Below are positions 57,219 through 63,390 of a stretch of 64,000 nt of DNA, in pieces. Origin of the DNA: Sphingobacteriales bacterium 16-39-50. Lineage in GTDB: Bacteria > Bacteroidota > Bacteroidia > Sphingobacteriales > Sphingobacteriaceae. Position 1 is the stretch's first letter. Each line of letters opens with the position of its first letter. The DNA lies in assembly GCA_002257025.1 (NCBI GenBank), contig NCHA01000012.1, positions 1-64,000 on the forward strand, in the 5' to 3' direction. The notes beneath the pieces are model-generated. The model worked only from the letters and a program-made list of their open reading frames with translations, was not told the origin of the DNA and made no database searches. The position numbers and the translations under genes were made by a program.

Positions 57219-57722
57219 ATGACCAGCAGAATTCCATTTGTAATAGCAATACTCACACTGATCTGCGGAGTATTTATTTCAATTATTTTCGGAGCCAATG
57301 AAGATTTTTTTAAAGACAAAATAAAGGAAGGTTTAAGCAAAAATGAAAAGATCAATCTTATTCAGGATGCTGCAGAAAAGGATGCTGTTTTAAAGGCTGA
57401 GGCTGAGAAAAACTGGAGATATTATCAAAGATTTCACTTTCATGCAACAGGAATAGGAGCAATGGTAATGGGCGTGTTGCTTTTTATATCATTTTTATCT
57501 GCTCCTGAGGGAATAAAAAATATTACCTCCTATGCCACCGCGATTGGCGGATTTCTTTATCCATTTGTCTGGCTTTTCGCGGCAATATATGGCCCTGAGC
57601 TGGGCAGAGAGGTTGCCAAGGAAAAATATGCCATTTTCGGATACATGGGTGGCTTATTTTTACTGGGCTTATTTTTGAGTCTTTTTATGGCACTTAGATA
57701 TTCATTCAAAACGAGTAAATAA
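57219..57722 (+). CDS. Membrane protein of unknown function
   Basis: This 167-residue protein has one N-terminal helix, a charged stretch (residues about 28-65, DFFKDKIKEGLSKNEKINLI), then three helices (about 72-92, 105-125, 140-160). HFHATGIGA precedes helix 2. I do not recognise a family; the sequence does not show enzyme motifs. Upstream (57080-57175) is unusually pyrimidine-rich. Confidence 0.6.
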   Translation: MTSRIPFVIAILTLICGVFISIIFGANEDFFKDKIKEGLSKNEKINLIQDAAEKDAVLKAEAEKNWRYYQRFHFHATGIGAMVMGVLLFISFLSAPEGIKNITSYATAIGGFLYPFVWLFAAIYGPELGREVAKEKYAIFGYMGGLFLLGLFLSLFMALRYSFKTSK

Positions 57723-57790: not shown

Positions 57791-59146
57791 TTATACTAGA
57801 GCAGCTTTCGCTACCCTCATGATATTTCCTGCAAGAATTTTTTGAATATAATCATCCGAATAACCCATTTGAACCATTCCTACTGTAAATAGTGGCCAAT
57901 TGGTCCAGGCCAAACTTTGAATCATTTCTGAGCTTTCCTTGAAATCATCTGGCGGCCAAAGTGCTTCCCAGCGTGTTCTCTCAGGATTTCGTGCAGAAAT
58001 CTTCTTGCTTTCCTCATTTGAAAATTGAGATCTGTAGGCTACATCAGTTCCAATAGCAACATGGTCAACGCCAAACTTTTTTACTACATAATCAATATGC
58101 TTCATCATCATTGCGATATCACCGCTACCCCCAAGAAACCTTGGTATGCAACAAATTCCAATATACCCACCGGTGTCGGCAATTGCACGAATCACATTAT
58201 CCGGTTTCGAACGAATATGCTTATTGATGGAAGCCACTGTGGTATGACTGGCTACCATGGGTTTCTCTGAAACCTGAGCTGCCTCCAAGCTTGTCTGCCA
58301 GCCGGAATGAGCAATATCCACAATCACACCAACACGATTCATTTCCTTGACCACGGCCCGTCCGAAATCACTCAATCCCCCATTAGCTTTTTCTGCACAA
58401 CCATCCCCAATTACATTTCTTCGATTATAGGTAAGGTGCATCATTCTAATTCCCAAATGGAAGAATACGCTGATATATCTTAATTCATCTTCTACAGAAA
58501 TCCAATCCTGTGGCAAAGGAACACCATTACCAGTGAAATATAGAGCATGTCGATTTTCTTTTTTAGCCCGTAGTATGTCTTCTGGCTTTACAGCTTTACT
58601 TACAAAATCACTCATCATATCAGTAGAATAAGTAAAGTTCGCTAAGCGCTTAAGCAGTCGACTAATCCCATTCCCTTCTTCACCGGTATTCTGTACCACA
58701 CAAGTTACCCCGGAAGCCTTCCAAGCATTTTCTAATTCCTCCCTTTCTCTTTTATCAATGACAAAACGAGTCATAGATTGACTTTCCATCATGTCCTGTA
58801 GTTCCAACTGAGATGCTTTGGAATCTATTGCCGAATTTATCAATGCAGCATCAGGTGCAGCCGATGGCATGAATCCATAACAATCAATGACAAGGGAATT
58901 CATGTGTAATTCAAGGCCCCGTTCAAGCTGTTTCTGACTGGGTTTAAGAATGTTTTTAGCTATCTCAAAATTCTGTTTTATTTGTTCATTTATGGCATAT
59001 CTTGAATGATCAAGGCTTAAAGATGATTGAAAATTAGGTTTAGGGAATTCATTGGCTTGAGCAAAACCTCCAAAAAAACCATCACCTGCTATAGCTAAAC
59101 CGGCCATGCCTGAAAGCTTTAGGAAATCTCTGCGCTTATTTTTCAT
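57791..59146 (-). CDS. Tat-leader peptidase M19-like (membrane dipeptidase-like) protein
   Basis: This 451-residue protein carries a twin-arginine leader (KNKRRDFLKLSGMAGLAIAG) and the M19 barrel: YNRRNVIGDGC, VIVDIAHSG and VASHTTVASINKHI, so two metal histidines are present. The first M19 motif, normally HxD in DGHND, reads VIDCYGF near residues 86-92, and metal ligands there are absent. It may be non-peptidase. It ends the leftward exported-carbohydrate group. Confidence 0.8.
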   Translation of the reverse strand: MKNKRRDFLKLSGMAGLAIAGDGFFGGFAQANEFPKPNFQSSLSLDHSRYAINEQIKQNFEIAKNILKPSQKQLERGLELHMNSLVIDCYGFMPSAAPDAALINSAIDSKASQLELQDMMESQSMTRFVIDKREREELENAWKASGVTCVVQNTGEEGNGISRLLKRLANFTYSTDMMSDFVSKAVKPEDILRAKKENRHALYFTGNGVPLPQDWISVEDELRYISVFFHLGIRMMHLTYNRRNVIGDGCAEKANGGLSDFGRAVVKEMNRVGVIVDIAHSGWQTSLEAAQVSEKPMVASHTTVASINKHIRSKPDNVIRAIADTGGYIGICCIPRFLGGSGDIAMMMKHIDYVVKKFGVDHVAIGTDVAYRSQFSNEESKKISARNPERTRWEALWPPDDFKESSEMIQSLAWTNWPLFTVGMVQMGYSDDYIQKILAGNIMRVAKAALV

Positions 59147-59204
59147 TAGAATATATTGTCTTTAAATGGCGATAAAGCTTTAATAAACCATTATTATTTT
59201 ATCT

Positions 59205-59229
59205 CATGAGCTAAGCTCATGCAGGTTTC
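59205..59229. repeat. Dispersed repeat, copy B, with palindrome
   Basis: AAGCTCATGCAGGTTTC (59213-59229) matches copy A at 47682 in 16 of 17 bases. CATGAGC-TAA-GCTCATG forms a palindrome at 59205-59221. Confidence 0.5.
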
Positions 59230-59332
59230 GTAAAAACTGTTTTTGATTTGAAAAAATTTTAAATAAATTCAAAATGGTATCCTAAAACAACTAATTCCTC
59301 ATAAGAGGGTTTATTGAATATAAAGCAAAATC

Positions 59333-60391
59333 TTAATATCTTGAAGCAAAATCTGCAGCATAGCCATTAATAACAGCATCACTTAAATGAGTACCTGAAC
59401 TAATGAGGATACGGTATCTCAATTTCAAGGTACCCCCTGCAGGAATACTATAATTTAACTCTTCTTTTTTATTCGTAAAATCTTTTACCCCAAATGGATT
59501 TGCTGCAAATAGGCCATAACCCCGTGCATGCCAATAGGTAGGATAACTCAGGTTTTTAGGATGATCACAAATAACCAATGACACTTTTTCATCTCCAATA
59601 TTTCCGTAAAGATCCATCCATTTAGCACGTTTCCCCCAAACGCCCTCTCCTTCATCCCCCTCACTGCTCCTGTAATTTCCTGTTGGGACATCATTCACCA
59701 TCTTCTTCACTGTAGTTGGATTACCTTGTGTATCCGTCAAGGTAAGGTCTTCTTTTGAGGGAAGTTCAAGCTGTCTGGCTACGCGGATTCCAAAACTGCC
59801 CTCTTTGGTATCTTTCATACTTACTGCTCGGGCACTTGCTGTTAAAGTAACAATACGGTCGATAATTCGAATAGAGCCTTTATCAATAAAATTGAATTCC
59901 GTGTTTTCTGCCAGTAATTCTTTCCCGTTAGGATCAATCCAACTGGCATTTACAATCAATACACCTTCACCTTTTCCACCTGCAATTTTTTGAATTCCTA
60001 AATGCTTAATCTGACCACCATTTACACTCCGTTTCCCTTCATGCCCATTACCCCAAAAATCAATTCCATTAACGTTCCCATAATTTAACCAGTTTCCGGC
60101 ATGATGGATATGATCACGGCGCTCACCTTCTCTTGGTTCGATTGGGAAGCCACGGGTAATAGGATTTCCAGAGGCCGTTAGTACCGGAAAAAGTATAGGT
60201 TTATATACGGTATCCAACCACTGATAAGAGGTGAACAGCTTCCCTCCAATCAAAACATCAACCCTTTTATCAGCCTCACGTTTAACAAATTTAACCATTG
60301 AAACCTGGCTGTTTGAAGTCTTAGTCTGAGCATATATTGCACAGGAACCTGCTAAAATAATTGCAATTAGCAGTTTAGAAGTTAATTTCAT
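59333..60391 (-). CDS. DUF6807 (PmoA-like annotated) exported protein
   Basis: This 352-residue protein has a Sec signal ending IYAQ (residue about 22) and the family pattern GFPIEPREGERRDHIHHAGNW plus GIDFWGNGH, a beta-rich protein often annotated as PmoA family/DUF6807. It is not a methane monooxygenase subunit. It commonly accompanies Gfo/Idh/MocA genes in carbohydrate loci, as here. Substrate unknown. Confidence 0.8.
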   Translation of the reverse strand: MKLTSKLLIAIILAGSCAIYAQTKTSNSQVSMVKFVKREADKRVDVLIGGKLFTSYQWLDTVYKPILFPVLTASGNPITRGFPIEPREGERRDHIHHAGNWLNYGNVNGIDFWGNGHEGKRSVNGGQIKHLGIQKIAGGKGEGVLIVNASWIDPNGKELLAENTEFNFIDKGSIRIIDRIVTLTASARAVSMKDTKEGSFGIRVARQLELPSKEDLTLTDTQGNPTTVKKMVNDVPTGNYRSSEGDEGEGVWGKRAKWMDLYGNIGDEKVSLVICDHPKNLSYPTYWHARGYGLFAANPFGVKDFTNKKEELNYSIPAGGTLKLRYRILISSGTHLSDAVINGYAADFASRY

Positions 60392-60433
60392 CTTTGTATT
60401 ATTTCTTAGGTTTTAATAAATAATCTTCGAAAA

Positions 60434-61798
60434 TTAAACTTTGGATGGAACTACATAGGGACTCCGATATTTACGGGTCAACATCGCGTCGGCCGCAGGA
60501 TCGTTAATACACTTTTCAGAATTACCCATAAACCTTATCTCGCGCCCAAGGCGATAAGATATATTTGCCAAAAAAGGTACGGCAGATGAATAATGCCCAT
60601 CTAATATATCGCAATGCAATGTTTCATTATTACCCGACTTAATTGCATCAAGAAAGTTTACAAAATGTTCCGTATTGCTAGAACCAGTTAGCGTTTCTGA
60701 AGCATTGGCTTGTATAACTTTTGATCCTGCAAAAGGGTCTGATTCTTTATTCCTGTATGCTCTCCAGGTACTCCCATCAATCTCAAGATACCCTTCGCTA
60801 CCATAAAAAATATTGCCAATTTTAATTCCAAGACCGGATTCACTATTAGAATAACGTCCCCTGGTTTCAAACTCCAGAATTTTACCATCATTATATTTGG
60901 CAATAGTAAGCTGAGTATTTGGAGTTTCCTGCTCACATTGAGTACGATCAATTCCATAAATTCCGCCGGAAGAGAATACTGATACAGGATGCTCATTTTT
61001 ATTTAGTCCCCAGCGAGCTATATCAAATTGGTGTGGACCCTGATTTCCGGTATCCCCATTCCCAGTATCCCAGAACCAATGCCAATTGTAATGACCACGT
61101 TTTTCATTATATGGCCGATAAGGAGCGGGACCTAACCATCGGTCATAGTGAAGGCTGGCGGGCGGGGTGCTGTCTTTGGCAATACCAAAAGAATCTCTGG
61201 GTTTAACGCAAAGACCTCGAGCCATATAAATCTCACCAATTCCACCACCATGAAGGAATTTCATCGCTTCCATTACATTAGGAATTGAGCGGTTCTGAAA
61301 ACCAACTTGAATACGCTTATTATACTTTCTTGAAGCTTCAATCATCTTTCTGCCTTCCCATATATTATGAGATGCTGGTTTTTCAACATATACATGCTTA
61401 CCGGCCTGACAGGCCCAGATAGTTCCGAGAGCATGCCAATGATTCGGAGTAGCAAAGGATACGATATCAATTTCTTTATCGTCCAGGACTTTGCGCATAT
61501 CCCATTCTGTTGTAGGTTTTATGCCTGTTTTATCTAAGACTGTTTTTGATCGAGGATCAAAAAATTGTTCATCTGTATCGCAAAGTGTTTTTAGGCGTAC
61601 ATTATGACTTTCCTTTAATTCACACCATGCATCAATATGAGATACTCCACGCCCTCTTATTCCAATTACTGCCACATTAATACGATCATTAGCCCCTAAA
61701 ATTGATCCATAGGATTTAGCACTGAAACCCATGCCTCCAATTGCTAGTCCGGCACCCCCAATAAGGCTTTTTTTAATAAAATCTCTTCTTTGAGTCAT
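60434..61798 (-). CDS. Tat-exported Gfo/Idh/MocA-family oxidoreductase
   Basis: This 454-residue protein has a Tat leader (TQRRDFIKKSLIGGAGLAIG), a Rossmann fold with VAVIGIRGRGVSHIDAW, the EKP catalytic segment VEKPASHNIWEGRKMIEAS, and a GFO_IDH_MocA C-terminal domain with GNQGPHQFDIARW (catalytic His). It probably oxidises a sugar or glycoside with a bound NAD cofactor, perhaps in the periplasm. Neighbours are a TIM-barrel protein and DUF6807. Confidence 0.9.
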   Translation of the reverse strand: MTQRRDFIKKSLIGGAGLAIGGMGFSAKSYGSILGANDRINVAVIGIRGRGVSHIDAWCELKESHNVRLKTLCDTDEQFFDPRSKTVLDKTGIKPTTEWDMRKVLDDKEIDIVSFATPNHWHALGTIWACQAGKHVYVEKPASHNIWEGRKMIEASRKYNKRIQVGFQNRSIPNVMEAMKFLHGGGIGEIYMARGLCVKPRDSFGIAKDSTPPASLHYDRWLGPAPYRPYNEKRGHYNWHWFWDTGNGDTGNQGPHQFDIARWGLNKNEHPVSVFSSGGIYGIDRTQCEQETPNTQLTIAKYNDGKILEFETRGRYSNSESGLGIKIGNIFYGSEGYLEIDGSTWRAYRNKESDPFAGSKVIQANASETLTGSSNTEHFVNFLDAIKSGNNETLHCDILDGHYSSAVPFLANISYRLGREIRFMGNSEKCINDPAADAMLTRKYRSPYVVPSKV

Positions 61799-61912
61799 TT
61801 TTATAAAAATTTAAATTGTTTTTAATTCCAATCCAGGAAATAACTACATGACCTGGTGCGGTATTTGAAATATCATGTAAAGCTAAGGCCAGACATTAAG
61901 TTCATTTAATCA

Positions 61913-62824
61913 TTATTTCGTTTTAATATTACCTACCAGATTTTTAAAAACAACCATTTGCTCCTTCATTGCTTTTATCTTATCAAGCGGATTAGAACTC
62001 GCTTCAAGAAGTATCCAACCATTAAAATCAATACCTGCAAATAGCTTAAAAAGCTGCTGATAGGGATAGTCGTTCTGGGTCAGTTCACGAACATGAACTG
62101 TATCCCCAATCCACTGCTTTACCAGGTTAAAATTGCTTTCAAGACCGGGTGAGTTTAGGTCAACATTATTGCTATTCCAGCAGATTTTAACATTCGGATT
62201 TGTTACCTCATCAAAAATGGCTTTCATATTAGGTAATTCCTGTGTAATTGGGCCATGTGCCTCAACCCTAATCAACATACCGTAATCATTGGCATATTTT
62301 CCAACTTCATTCAATGAATTAGCAATCTGAGTTATAGTTTGCTCTCTGGGAATATTGGCAGGAAGCGTATTTGGTTTTACTTTGATTCCGCTGGCCCCTA
62401 TATCTCTGCATAGCTTGATATAATCTTTTGTCTGCTCGATGTTATTACGCAAAATAGCCCTATCCGGACTATGAAATTCAAAGTTCGAACCGTATCCAAC
62501 ACAAGTTACCGGACTGTCGGCGAACCTACTCTTAACTTCGGCTCTTTGCCTAGAATTAAGGCTGATCTCAACCCCATGAGCATGTTGGGTACGAAGTTCA
62601 ACTGCTTCAAAACCGGTCTTTTCACAATTAGAAATAATAAGAGGTAAATCCCAGTCCTTTCCCCATTGATAGGTAACCAACCCGAACTTCATAGCTGACT
62701 TTTTGATGTTTATTGTTGCATCAAAAATCTGGTGCGTAATGGAGGCGTAAGAACTGGAACCAGCAATTGCAAGTCCGGCAGAGCATATCAGGCTCCTTTT
62801 TATAAAATCTCTACGAGCTGTCAT
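61913..62824 (-). CDS. Tat-exported sugar isomerase/epimerase-like TIM barrel (AP2Ec family)
   Basis: This 303-residue protein has a Tat leader (TARRDFIKRSLICSAGLAIA) nearly identical to that of the downstream oxidoreductase. The AP_endonuc_2-type TIM barrel follows: TGFEAVELRTQHAHGVEISL, IRVEAHGPI and NGWILLEASSNP, with candidate metal ligands Glu/His. Related TIM barrels act as sugar isomerases or 3-keto-glycoside lyases. First gene of the leftward group. Confidence 0.85.
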   Translation of the reverse strand: MTARRDFIKRSLICSAGLAIAGSSSYASITHQIFDATINIKKSAMKFGLVTYQWGKDWDLPLIISNCEKTGFEAVELRTQHAHGVEISLNSRQRAEVKSRFADSPVTCVGYGSNFEFHSPDRAILRNNIEQTKDYIKLCRDIGASGIKVKPNTLPANIPREQTITQIANSLNEVGKYANDYGMLIRVEAHGPITQELPNMKAIFDEVTNPNVKICWNSNNVDLNSPGLESNFNLVKQWIGDTVHVRELTQNDYPYQQLFKLFAGIDFNGWILLEASSNPLDKIKAMKEQMVVFKNLVGNIKTK

Positions 62825-63039: not shown

Positions 63040-63390
63040 ATGCAAATTCACATATTAAAATCAAAAATTCACAGGGTTAAAGTAACAGATGCAGATCTTA
63101 ACTATGTAGGCAGTATTACAATAGATCAGGACTTAATGGATGCGGCGAATATCCTGGAGGGTGAAAAAGTACAGATCGTTAACAATAATAATGGTGAACG
63201 CTTTGAAACCTATACCATAACCGGAAGAAGGGGAAGTGGAGATATTATCCTGAATGGTGCAGCTGCACGAAGAGTAATGAAAGGTGATGTAATCATAATC
63301 ATAACCTATGCTATTATGGATGCAGAAGAAGCAAGGAATTATAAACCAGTTGTTGTATTCCCGGATGAGGAAACTAACTTATTGAAATAA
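63040..63390 (+). CDS. panD: Aspartate 1-decarboxylase
   Basis: This 116-residue pyruvoyl enzyme makes beta-alanine for pantothenate. The self-cleavage site Gly24-Ser25 (NYVGSITID) forms the pyruvoyl group; [18 protein letters not shown] and [13 protein letters not shown] are complete. A TAAATTTG box (63028-63035) lies almost at the ATG. panC is about 10 kb to the left. Convergent with rluF. Confidence 0.96.

Follow-up and report, generated by a model that had tools for sequence, protein, structure and literature searches.

Four adjacent open reading frames (ORFs) on the minus strand of a contig from Sphingobacteriales bacterium 16-39-50 (GCA_002257025.1, contig NCHA01000012.1; a 4.1 Mb genome in 74 contigs) were analyzed as a candidate system for the processing of glycosides outside the cytoplasm. 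The window, that is, the whole stretch of DNA analyzed, comprises positions 1–64,000 of the forward strand of this contig, and the four genes occupy positions 57791–62824. The first gene of the unit (61913–62824) encodes a 303-residue AP2Ec/xylose isomerase-like TIM barrel protein (AP2; PF01261, 77.7 bits). It is followed by genes encoding a 454-residue Gfo/Idh/MocA oxidoreductase (Gfo; 60434–61798; PF01408, 58.9 bits, and PF19051, 72.4 bits), a 352-residue DUF6807 protein (59333–60391; PF14100, 246 bits for a cut-off of 27), and a 451-residue M19-like protein (57791–59146; PF01244, 211 bits), with intergenic gaps of 114, 42, and 186 bp. The ORFs and the Pfam scores confirmed the four families, their positions, and their common strand as given in the initial annotation.

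Three of these proteins start with a twin-arginine translocation (Tat)-type leader, encoded on the minus strand by the first 30 codons of AP2 (62735–62824; MTARRDFIKR, with an RRDFIK motif), Gfo (61709–61798; MTQRRDFIKK), and the M19-like protein (59057–59146; MKNKRRDFLK). The NCBIfam Tat model TIGR01409 (cut-off 16.7) was passed by Gfo (18.4 bits) and by the M19-like protein (17.9 bits). No match of the AP2 leader to TIGR01409 at E ≤ 0.01, or to the Pfam TAT_signal model, was found, the latter matching only the M19-like protein among the four, below its cut-off (18.4 vs 22.7). The leaders had been described as near-identical RRDF(I/L)K sequences; the motif is indeed present on all three proteins, but "near-identical" is a little strong, since identical aligned columns amount to 18/30 for AP2/Gfo, 16/32 for Gfo/M19, and 14/32 for AP2/M19. 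The DUF6807 protein, predicted to be exported by the general secretory (Sec) pathway, does lie between the Tat-led genes and has a non-Tat, Sec-like leader, its Sec type being assigned by eye.

The likeness of the leaders exceeds chance: a DNA pattern for RRDF(I/L/M/F)K occurred 17 times in the genome, compared to four times for the reversed control, and three of the 17 occurrences are the window genes. Among relatives, the strict RRxF twin-arginine motif was present in 32/32 AP2, 77/79 Gfo, and 3/3 M19 proteins, as well as in all 12 members of an esterase-like group (CEd), and in none of 24 DUF6807 proteins (one of 24 with a looser pattern). The AP2 and Gfo leaders of the related genomes G086 and G104 are identical at 24/30 and 21/30 residues (68/90 and 71/90 bases), and those of G098 at just 13/31 residues (56/94 bases), which is suggestive of leader copying between the two genes. 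Genome-wide, we found matches to one TatC, 35 Gfo Rossmann domains, two DUF6807, and eight M19 proteins. Judged from their sequences, the AP2, Gfo, DUF6807, and M19-like proteins are probably exported carbohydrate-processing proteins.

The solved structures closest in sequence to Gfo were the dehydrogenases 8tdf (E 1.5e-29) and 8tdh (1.1e-28), followed by DgpA (7xr9, E 2e-19). Lys140, within an EKP motif, and His256 were kept in 81/81 sequences, and two proteins of the BT_2158 family have Lys and His at these positions as well, which makes 3-keto chemistry plausible for this enzyme. GH109 enzymes are NAD-dependent exo-glycosidases, likewise of Gfo type, with the C-terminal domain PF21252, and a GH109-like gene lies in the G086 locus; PF21252 was absent from the Pfam matches of the window Gfo at E ≤ 0.01, which has PF19051 instead. 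The best BT_2158 score in the source genome (489 bits, also below the curated cut-off) belonged to another Gfo gene with a twin-arginine leader, part of a second oxidative cluster on contig 30 (L197:1327–15572). This cluster also contains a GMC oxidoreductase, a protein of the gluconate 2-dehydrogenase subunit 3 type, and, 12 kb from the BT_2158-like gene, a PF06439 3-keto-disaccharide hydrolase.

The AlphaFold model of AP2 (predicted local distance difference test, pLDDT, 88) matched epimerases, a hydratase, and lyases at Z 23–27: 4ovx at 26.9, ketose 3-epimerases at about 24–26, the 3-keto-glucoside 4-epimerase YcjR (6wn6) at 24.9, the glucal hydratase AtHYD at 23.8, and DgpB-DgpC at 23.6 (root-mean-square deviation, rmsd, 2.9 over 238 residues), the last no better than the epimerases. 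Z scores within 1 of each other were counted as ties. The predicted fold fits lyase, hydratase, and epimerase reactions about equally and does not single out the lyase chemistry specified in the initial annotation. Alignment to D-tagatose 3-epimerase placed a likely metal site at E188/N217/H244/E274, opposite a Glu-Asp-His-Glu set that we take to be the metal ligands of that enzyme; positions 217, 244, and 274 were invariant in 33 rows and position 188 nearly so.

Since AP2 aligns to ketose 3-epimerases, and the Z scores of YcjR and the ketose epimerases lie slightly higher than that of DgpB-DgpC, Gfo and AP2 may interconvert the stereochemistry of a sugar via a 3-keto intermediate, bonds being broken by other enzymes of the genome. 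The gluco/guloside interconversion by E. coli YcjS/YcjR/YcjQ is a precedent, in which dehydrogenases act with an AP2Ec-fold 3-keto epimerase and for which we know of no Tat leader. In PMC11543891, YcjR is named a 3-keto-D-glucoside isomerase and the Ycj system is associated with an ABC importer, unlike the window genes. However, the fold scores do not separate epimerization from cleavage, one of the four metal ligands differs from those of the epimerases, and the esterase-like and SusCD genes of G086 (see below) suggest breakdown. We therefore regard epimerization without cleavage as rather unlikely.

Alternatively, the substrate of Gfo and AP2 could be a different polyol or a sugar acid (of inositol or uronate type), with no glycosidic bond being attacked. 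Gfo matched the inositol dehydrogenase model at 72.8 bits, AP2 gave weak matches to IolE/IolO models, and a tagaturonate reductase gene lies near two of the relatives scanned. However, the Gfo score is set against a cut-off of 355, those of AP2 are also far below their cut-offs, and export would better suit extracytoplasmic glycans than inositol, making such a substrate very unlikely.

The model of the DUF6807 protein (pLDDT 87) has the shape of a galactose mutarotase-like supersandwich and matched, in VIA-align, rhamnogalacturonan lyases and galactose mutarotases at Z 15–18, among them the PL26 rhamnogalacturonan lyase 5xqg (Z 18.0; rmsd 3.2, 240 residues) and GalM 4bze (Z 16.9). The assignment was taken from VIA-align and not from Foldseek, which gave low TM-scores (TMq 0.26–0.39) and large rmsd values. 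No PDB sequence matched at E ≤ 1. Asp93, His94, His96, Glu197, and His288 were invariant in 24 rows. In the available parts of the literature, PF14100 appears as a Pfam number alone (PMC10971088), as an ORF that may share an operon with two new beta-galactosidases (PMC5342196), and as a marker for the methane oxygenase PmoA (PMC10291797); no functional test of the family was found in these accessible portions of the publications naming DUF6807 or PF14100. Because the fold found here is mutarotase-like, counts of PmoA based on PF14100 may mislead.

The M19-like protein matched the PF01244 profile only from profile position 45 on (45–318). Where seven genomic paralogues have D-x-H and (V/L)EG, it has VIDCYGF and FTGNGV, respectively, and its later His280 and His301 are retained. 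Its orthologues share the altered motifs, and the nearest solved M19 relative (2i5g), as aligned, likewise lacks the EG motif. We take the D-x-H-x-D-type motif and the bridging Glu of M19 enzymes to be metal ligands. A canonical dipeptidase role was rejected on the loss of this N-terminal metal motif and of the bridging Glu, and the protein is probably not a canonical dipeptidase.

The genomic setting of the four genes was compared among relatives. On one side they adjoin, outside the set, the divergent panD gene (63040–63390, plus strand; TIGR00223, 165.5 bits), and on the other a plus-strand gene (57219–57722) with no Pfam match over the cut-off. By Pfam, two large ORFs further left encode IF-2 and an M1 peptidase, and a Met-zincin is encoded by the large ORF on the right; no tRNA was detected in a scan of the window. 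In the ORF list of the window, with Pfam applied to the large ORFs, no SusC or SusD was found beside the quartet. The remark in the initial annotation that SusCD genes are not adjacent thus holds for the window, but not for the relative G086, where SusC and SusD occur at the same panD site, so that their absence is a local state and does not serve as a distinguishing trait.

From panD, the order in G086 is SusC, SusD, two esterase-like hydrolases, a GH109-like gene, AP2, Gfo, DUF6807, and M19, with Pfam matches to a TonB plug domain, SusD_RagB, AXE1-type hydrolases, and PF21252. The genes farther on encode a further Gfo, an IS200-type transposase, additional esterase-like hydrolases (one scoring slightly below the Pfam cut-offs), an MFS transporter, NIPSNAP and FG-GAP proteins, a second GH109-like protein, a NagB-like protein (below the NagB cut-off), NagA, and LacI. 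Among the ORFs scanned in this locus, a subset of the total, there were GH109-like oxidoreductases but no members of classical families of glycoside hydrolases or polysaccharide lyases. The presence of the same genes at this site behind SusC-SusD, esterase-like, and GH109-like genes suggests that the window quartet is part of a polysaccharide-utilization locus.

In the family, DUF6807 relatives were found in 50/151 genomes, and M19 and AP2 relatives (E ≤ 1e-30) in 12/151 each; for the 19 own or same-genus genomes, the numbers were seven (DUF6807), six (AP2), and 11 (M19). The quartet is contiguous in four of these 19 (G000, G109, G086, and G104), the window genes being 90–98% identical to those of G109; contig ends truncate the loci of G149 and G134. 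The panD site is common to the window, G086, G098, G109, G114, G124, G129, and G144, and in G098, G114, G124, G129, and G144 M19 stands beside panD without the other three genes. The M19 protein of G098 (L214:1299–2654), encoded 216 bp from panD, is 98% identical to that of the window, compared to 71–84% for the AP2-Gfo-DUF6807 copy of this genome on a separate contig, where a tagaturonate reductase was also identified. M19 lies beside GH109-like and NagB-like genes in G119.

Surroundings were examined for 40 of 52 DUF6807 places. Outside the genus and G099, a different Gfo (24–30% identical) directly adjoined DUF6807 in 23 of 32 loci and lay one gene away in four, and none was labelled nearby in five. 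G099, from another genus, has the orthologous Gfo and DUF6807 with a sulfatase, more than two SusC/SusD pairs (several Pfam-confirmed), ECF sigma and FecR-like genes (by eye), and M19 about 7.5 kb from DUF6807. The source genome itself has a paralogous AP2-Gfo locus (63–64% identity) on contig 28 (L194:3032–12181), beside purD, which also carries amidohydrolase, esterase-like, and GH109-like genes (the last by 88% likeness); a secA-like gene (by eye) lies on its other side, and the full locus of G104 lies between similar genes.

In parallel, a scan with the Gfo alignment gave 528 confirmed places, of which the best 80 were taken as loci; 36 of these loci span less than 15 kb. They are not independent, because their selection was by similarity to the query and several Cyclobacterium species share one arrangement; L099, L100, and L101 are the contigs of G109, G149, and G104 again. 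Within five genes of Gfo, AP2 was found in 32 loci, DUF6807 in 23, three esterase-like groups in 14, 12, and 12, and SusC and LacI in 11 each; M19 was found in three of the 80, L116 being the only new M19 locus. Among the taxa are Cyclobacterium, Dyadobacter, Mariniphaga, Draconibacterium, Chitinophagaceae, Phycisphaerae, and Opitutaceae. For the 78 loci whose Gfo is at least 60% identical (L176 and L178 dropped), AP2 is the next gene upstream of Gfo in 26, the gap being −4 to 113 bp; DUF6807 is the next gene downstream in 19; both arrangements occur together in four; and one or the other adjoins Gfo on either side in 46. The co-occurrence proposed for the four families is therefore upheld for the recurring Gfo-AP2 and Gfo-DUF6807 pairs, but not as a fixed foursome: all four are present in two of the 78 loci, both Daejeonella-type. 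Nor do the genus genomes behave as expected of a four-family module, given the contiguous quartet in four of 19 and the lone M19 at panD in five.

Four similar loci (L126:11604–13913 and three others) have, after AP2-Gfo, a gene for a DUF7133 protein that contains a cytochrome c domain, perhaps another route for electron disposal. In the neighborhood of relatives there are nagA, NagB-like, tagaturonate reductase, and MFS transporter genes, and one Cyclobacterium locus has xylose isomerase and tagaturonate reductase. A substrate guess from such neighbors (nagA, tagaturonate reductase, xylose isomerase, and the G099 sulfatase) was dropped, as their directions conflict.

Taking these data together, we lean, with modest confidence, towards a partial polysaccharide-utilization locus that would carry out periplasmic, cofactor-bound 3-keto processing of glycosides. 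From the gene content, the conserved leader motifs and neighborhoods, the predicted folds, and the conserved residues, we infer localization, cofactor retention, C3 specificity, order of steps, and substrate as follows. Gfo would fold around NAD(P) in the cytoplasm, be exported by Tat, and oxidize a sugar hydroxyl, most likely at C3, of a glycoside or oligosaccharide. AP2, exported folded with its metal, would act beside the new ketone, either eliminating the C1 group, with or without hydration of the glycal, or epimerizing a neighboring carbon. The keto sugar would then be reduced by the same bound cofactor of Gfo, so that no soluble cofactor would be needed outside the cytoplasm. The DUF6807 protein, mutarotase-like in its predicted fold, may be involved in carbohydrate handling, and the M19-like protein may be a loosely attached accessory, separable from the other three.

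Several observations weigh against this proposal. Gfo scored 136.4 bits on BT_2158_fam (NF058561), far under the curated cut-off of 750, so that 3-oxidation is not inherited through family membership. A twin-arginine leader is present on 11 of the 20 Gfo-type loci examined in the source genome (one of the 20, L015, with the wrong ORF), and since such leaders are common on its Gfo proteins, having this leader in common says little about joint function. In AP2, Asn217, invariant in 33 rows, replaces the Asp ligand of the epimerases. Beta-galactosidase, alpha-galactosidase, and mannosidase domains scored nearly as high on the DUF6807 model as its best matches, so its fold indicates carbohydrate kinship at most. 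Of the 78 loci, 37 lack both an AP2 gene immediately before Gfo and a DUF6807 gene immediately after it, and in 30 the two are missing from all of the DNA examined. AP2 and DUF6807 share just seven, and for this reason they look more like alternative partners of Gfo than like a fixed set.

Finally, SusCD and esterase genes are missing from the window, and the quartet may for this reason be a decaying remnant of a larger locus, with no working pathway and only M19 kept for its own sake, a state compatible with the other explanations. The number of such genes at this site is at least nine in G086 and four in each of G000 and G109, with M19 alone in G098, G114, G124, G129, and G144, and the second locus on contig 28 retains AP2, Gfo, amidohydrolase, esterase-like, and GH109-like genes. 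However, all four ORFs are intact and close to those of G109, and the leaders and residues of AP2 and Gfo are conserved. To tell loss from gain, the AP2 and M19 upstream regions were compared with those of the five lone-M19 relatives and of the G086 SusC, and no score exceeded those of shuffles; only the G109 regions matched, and the M19 region of G086 was too short to compare. A remnant without function appears decidedly unlikely.

The proposed periplasmic 3-keto pathway has several known counterparts. The DgpA/DgpB-DgpC C-glycoside systems and the O-glycoside eliminase/hydratase systems also pair a Gfo with an AP2Ec-fold partner. Those of the DgpA/DgpB-DgpC type are cytoplasmic according to the initial annotation, and neither "periplasm" nor "signal peptide" occurs in the available part of PMC10628242. 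DgpB-DgpC is a two-subunit lyase, the second subunit of which was not seen beside the window AP2: in a search of the quartet and its immediate surroundings, no ORF of at least 80 residues fitted such a small partner. The glucose-fructose oxidoreductase (GFOR) of Zymomonas and the aldose-aldose oxidoreductase (AAOR) of Caulobacter, matched at E 1e-10 and 5e-12, act on free aldoses, and we know of no AP2 or DUF6807 partner for them. Both are described as Tat-signalled in PMC4628093, a feature in common with the window Gfo.

Bacteroides BT2158 is named a periplasmic glycoside 3-dehydrogenase in PMC11300592. A DUF1080-family hydrolase that would act on 3'-ketolactose in the periplasm is proposed in PMC9007349, which also cites BT2157 as a 3-ketotrehalose hydrolase. 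The BT2158 type and the window Gfo are alike in fold, twin-arginine leader, and the Lys and His residues. They differ in score (750, the cut-off, vs 136) and in partner: over-cut-off BT_2158 proteins were found in 2/295 genomes of the class, both with a twin-arginine leader and a PF06439 neighbor, whereas the window has AP2Ec and DUF6807. Export had been presented as the new element; with BT2158 periplasmic, its over-cut-off relatives twin-arginine-led, and GFOR and AAOR Tat-signalled, the export of dehydrogenases of this kind does not count as a novelty. The new part may instead be the pairing of Gfo with a Tat-led AP2Ec protein and DUF6807, a combination for which a search by family names, with most subscription journals outside its coverage, found no publication.

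More broadly, it is possible, although doubtful, that redox-neutral periplasmic glycan breakdown is widespread in Bacteroidota, with a Tat-exported Gfo, a Tat-led AP2Ec protein or DUF6807, and esterase helpers replacing classical glycoside hydrolases inside SusCD loci. Because loci with both AP2 and DUF6807 are rare, DUF6807 could take the place of AP2, as a new enzyme acting on the keto sugar or glycal. The proposal would place DUF6807, a family without assigned function, and a Tat-led AP2Ec family in a testable oxidative glycan pathway, for which the loci of one genus, ranging from full to reduced, form a natural series.

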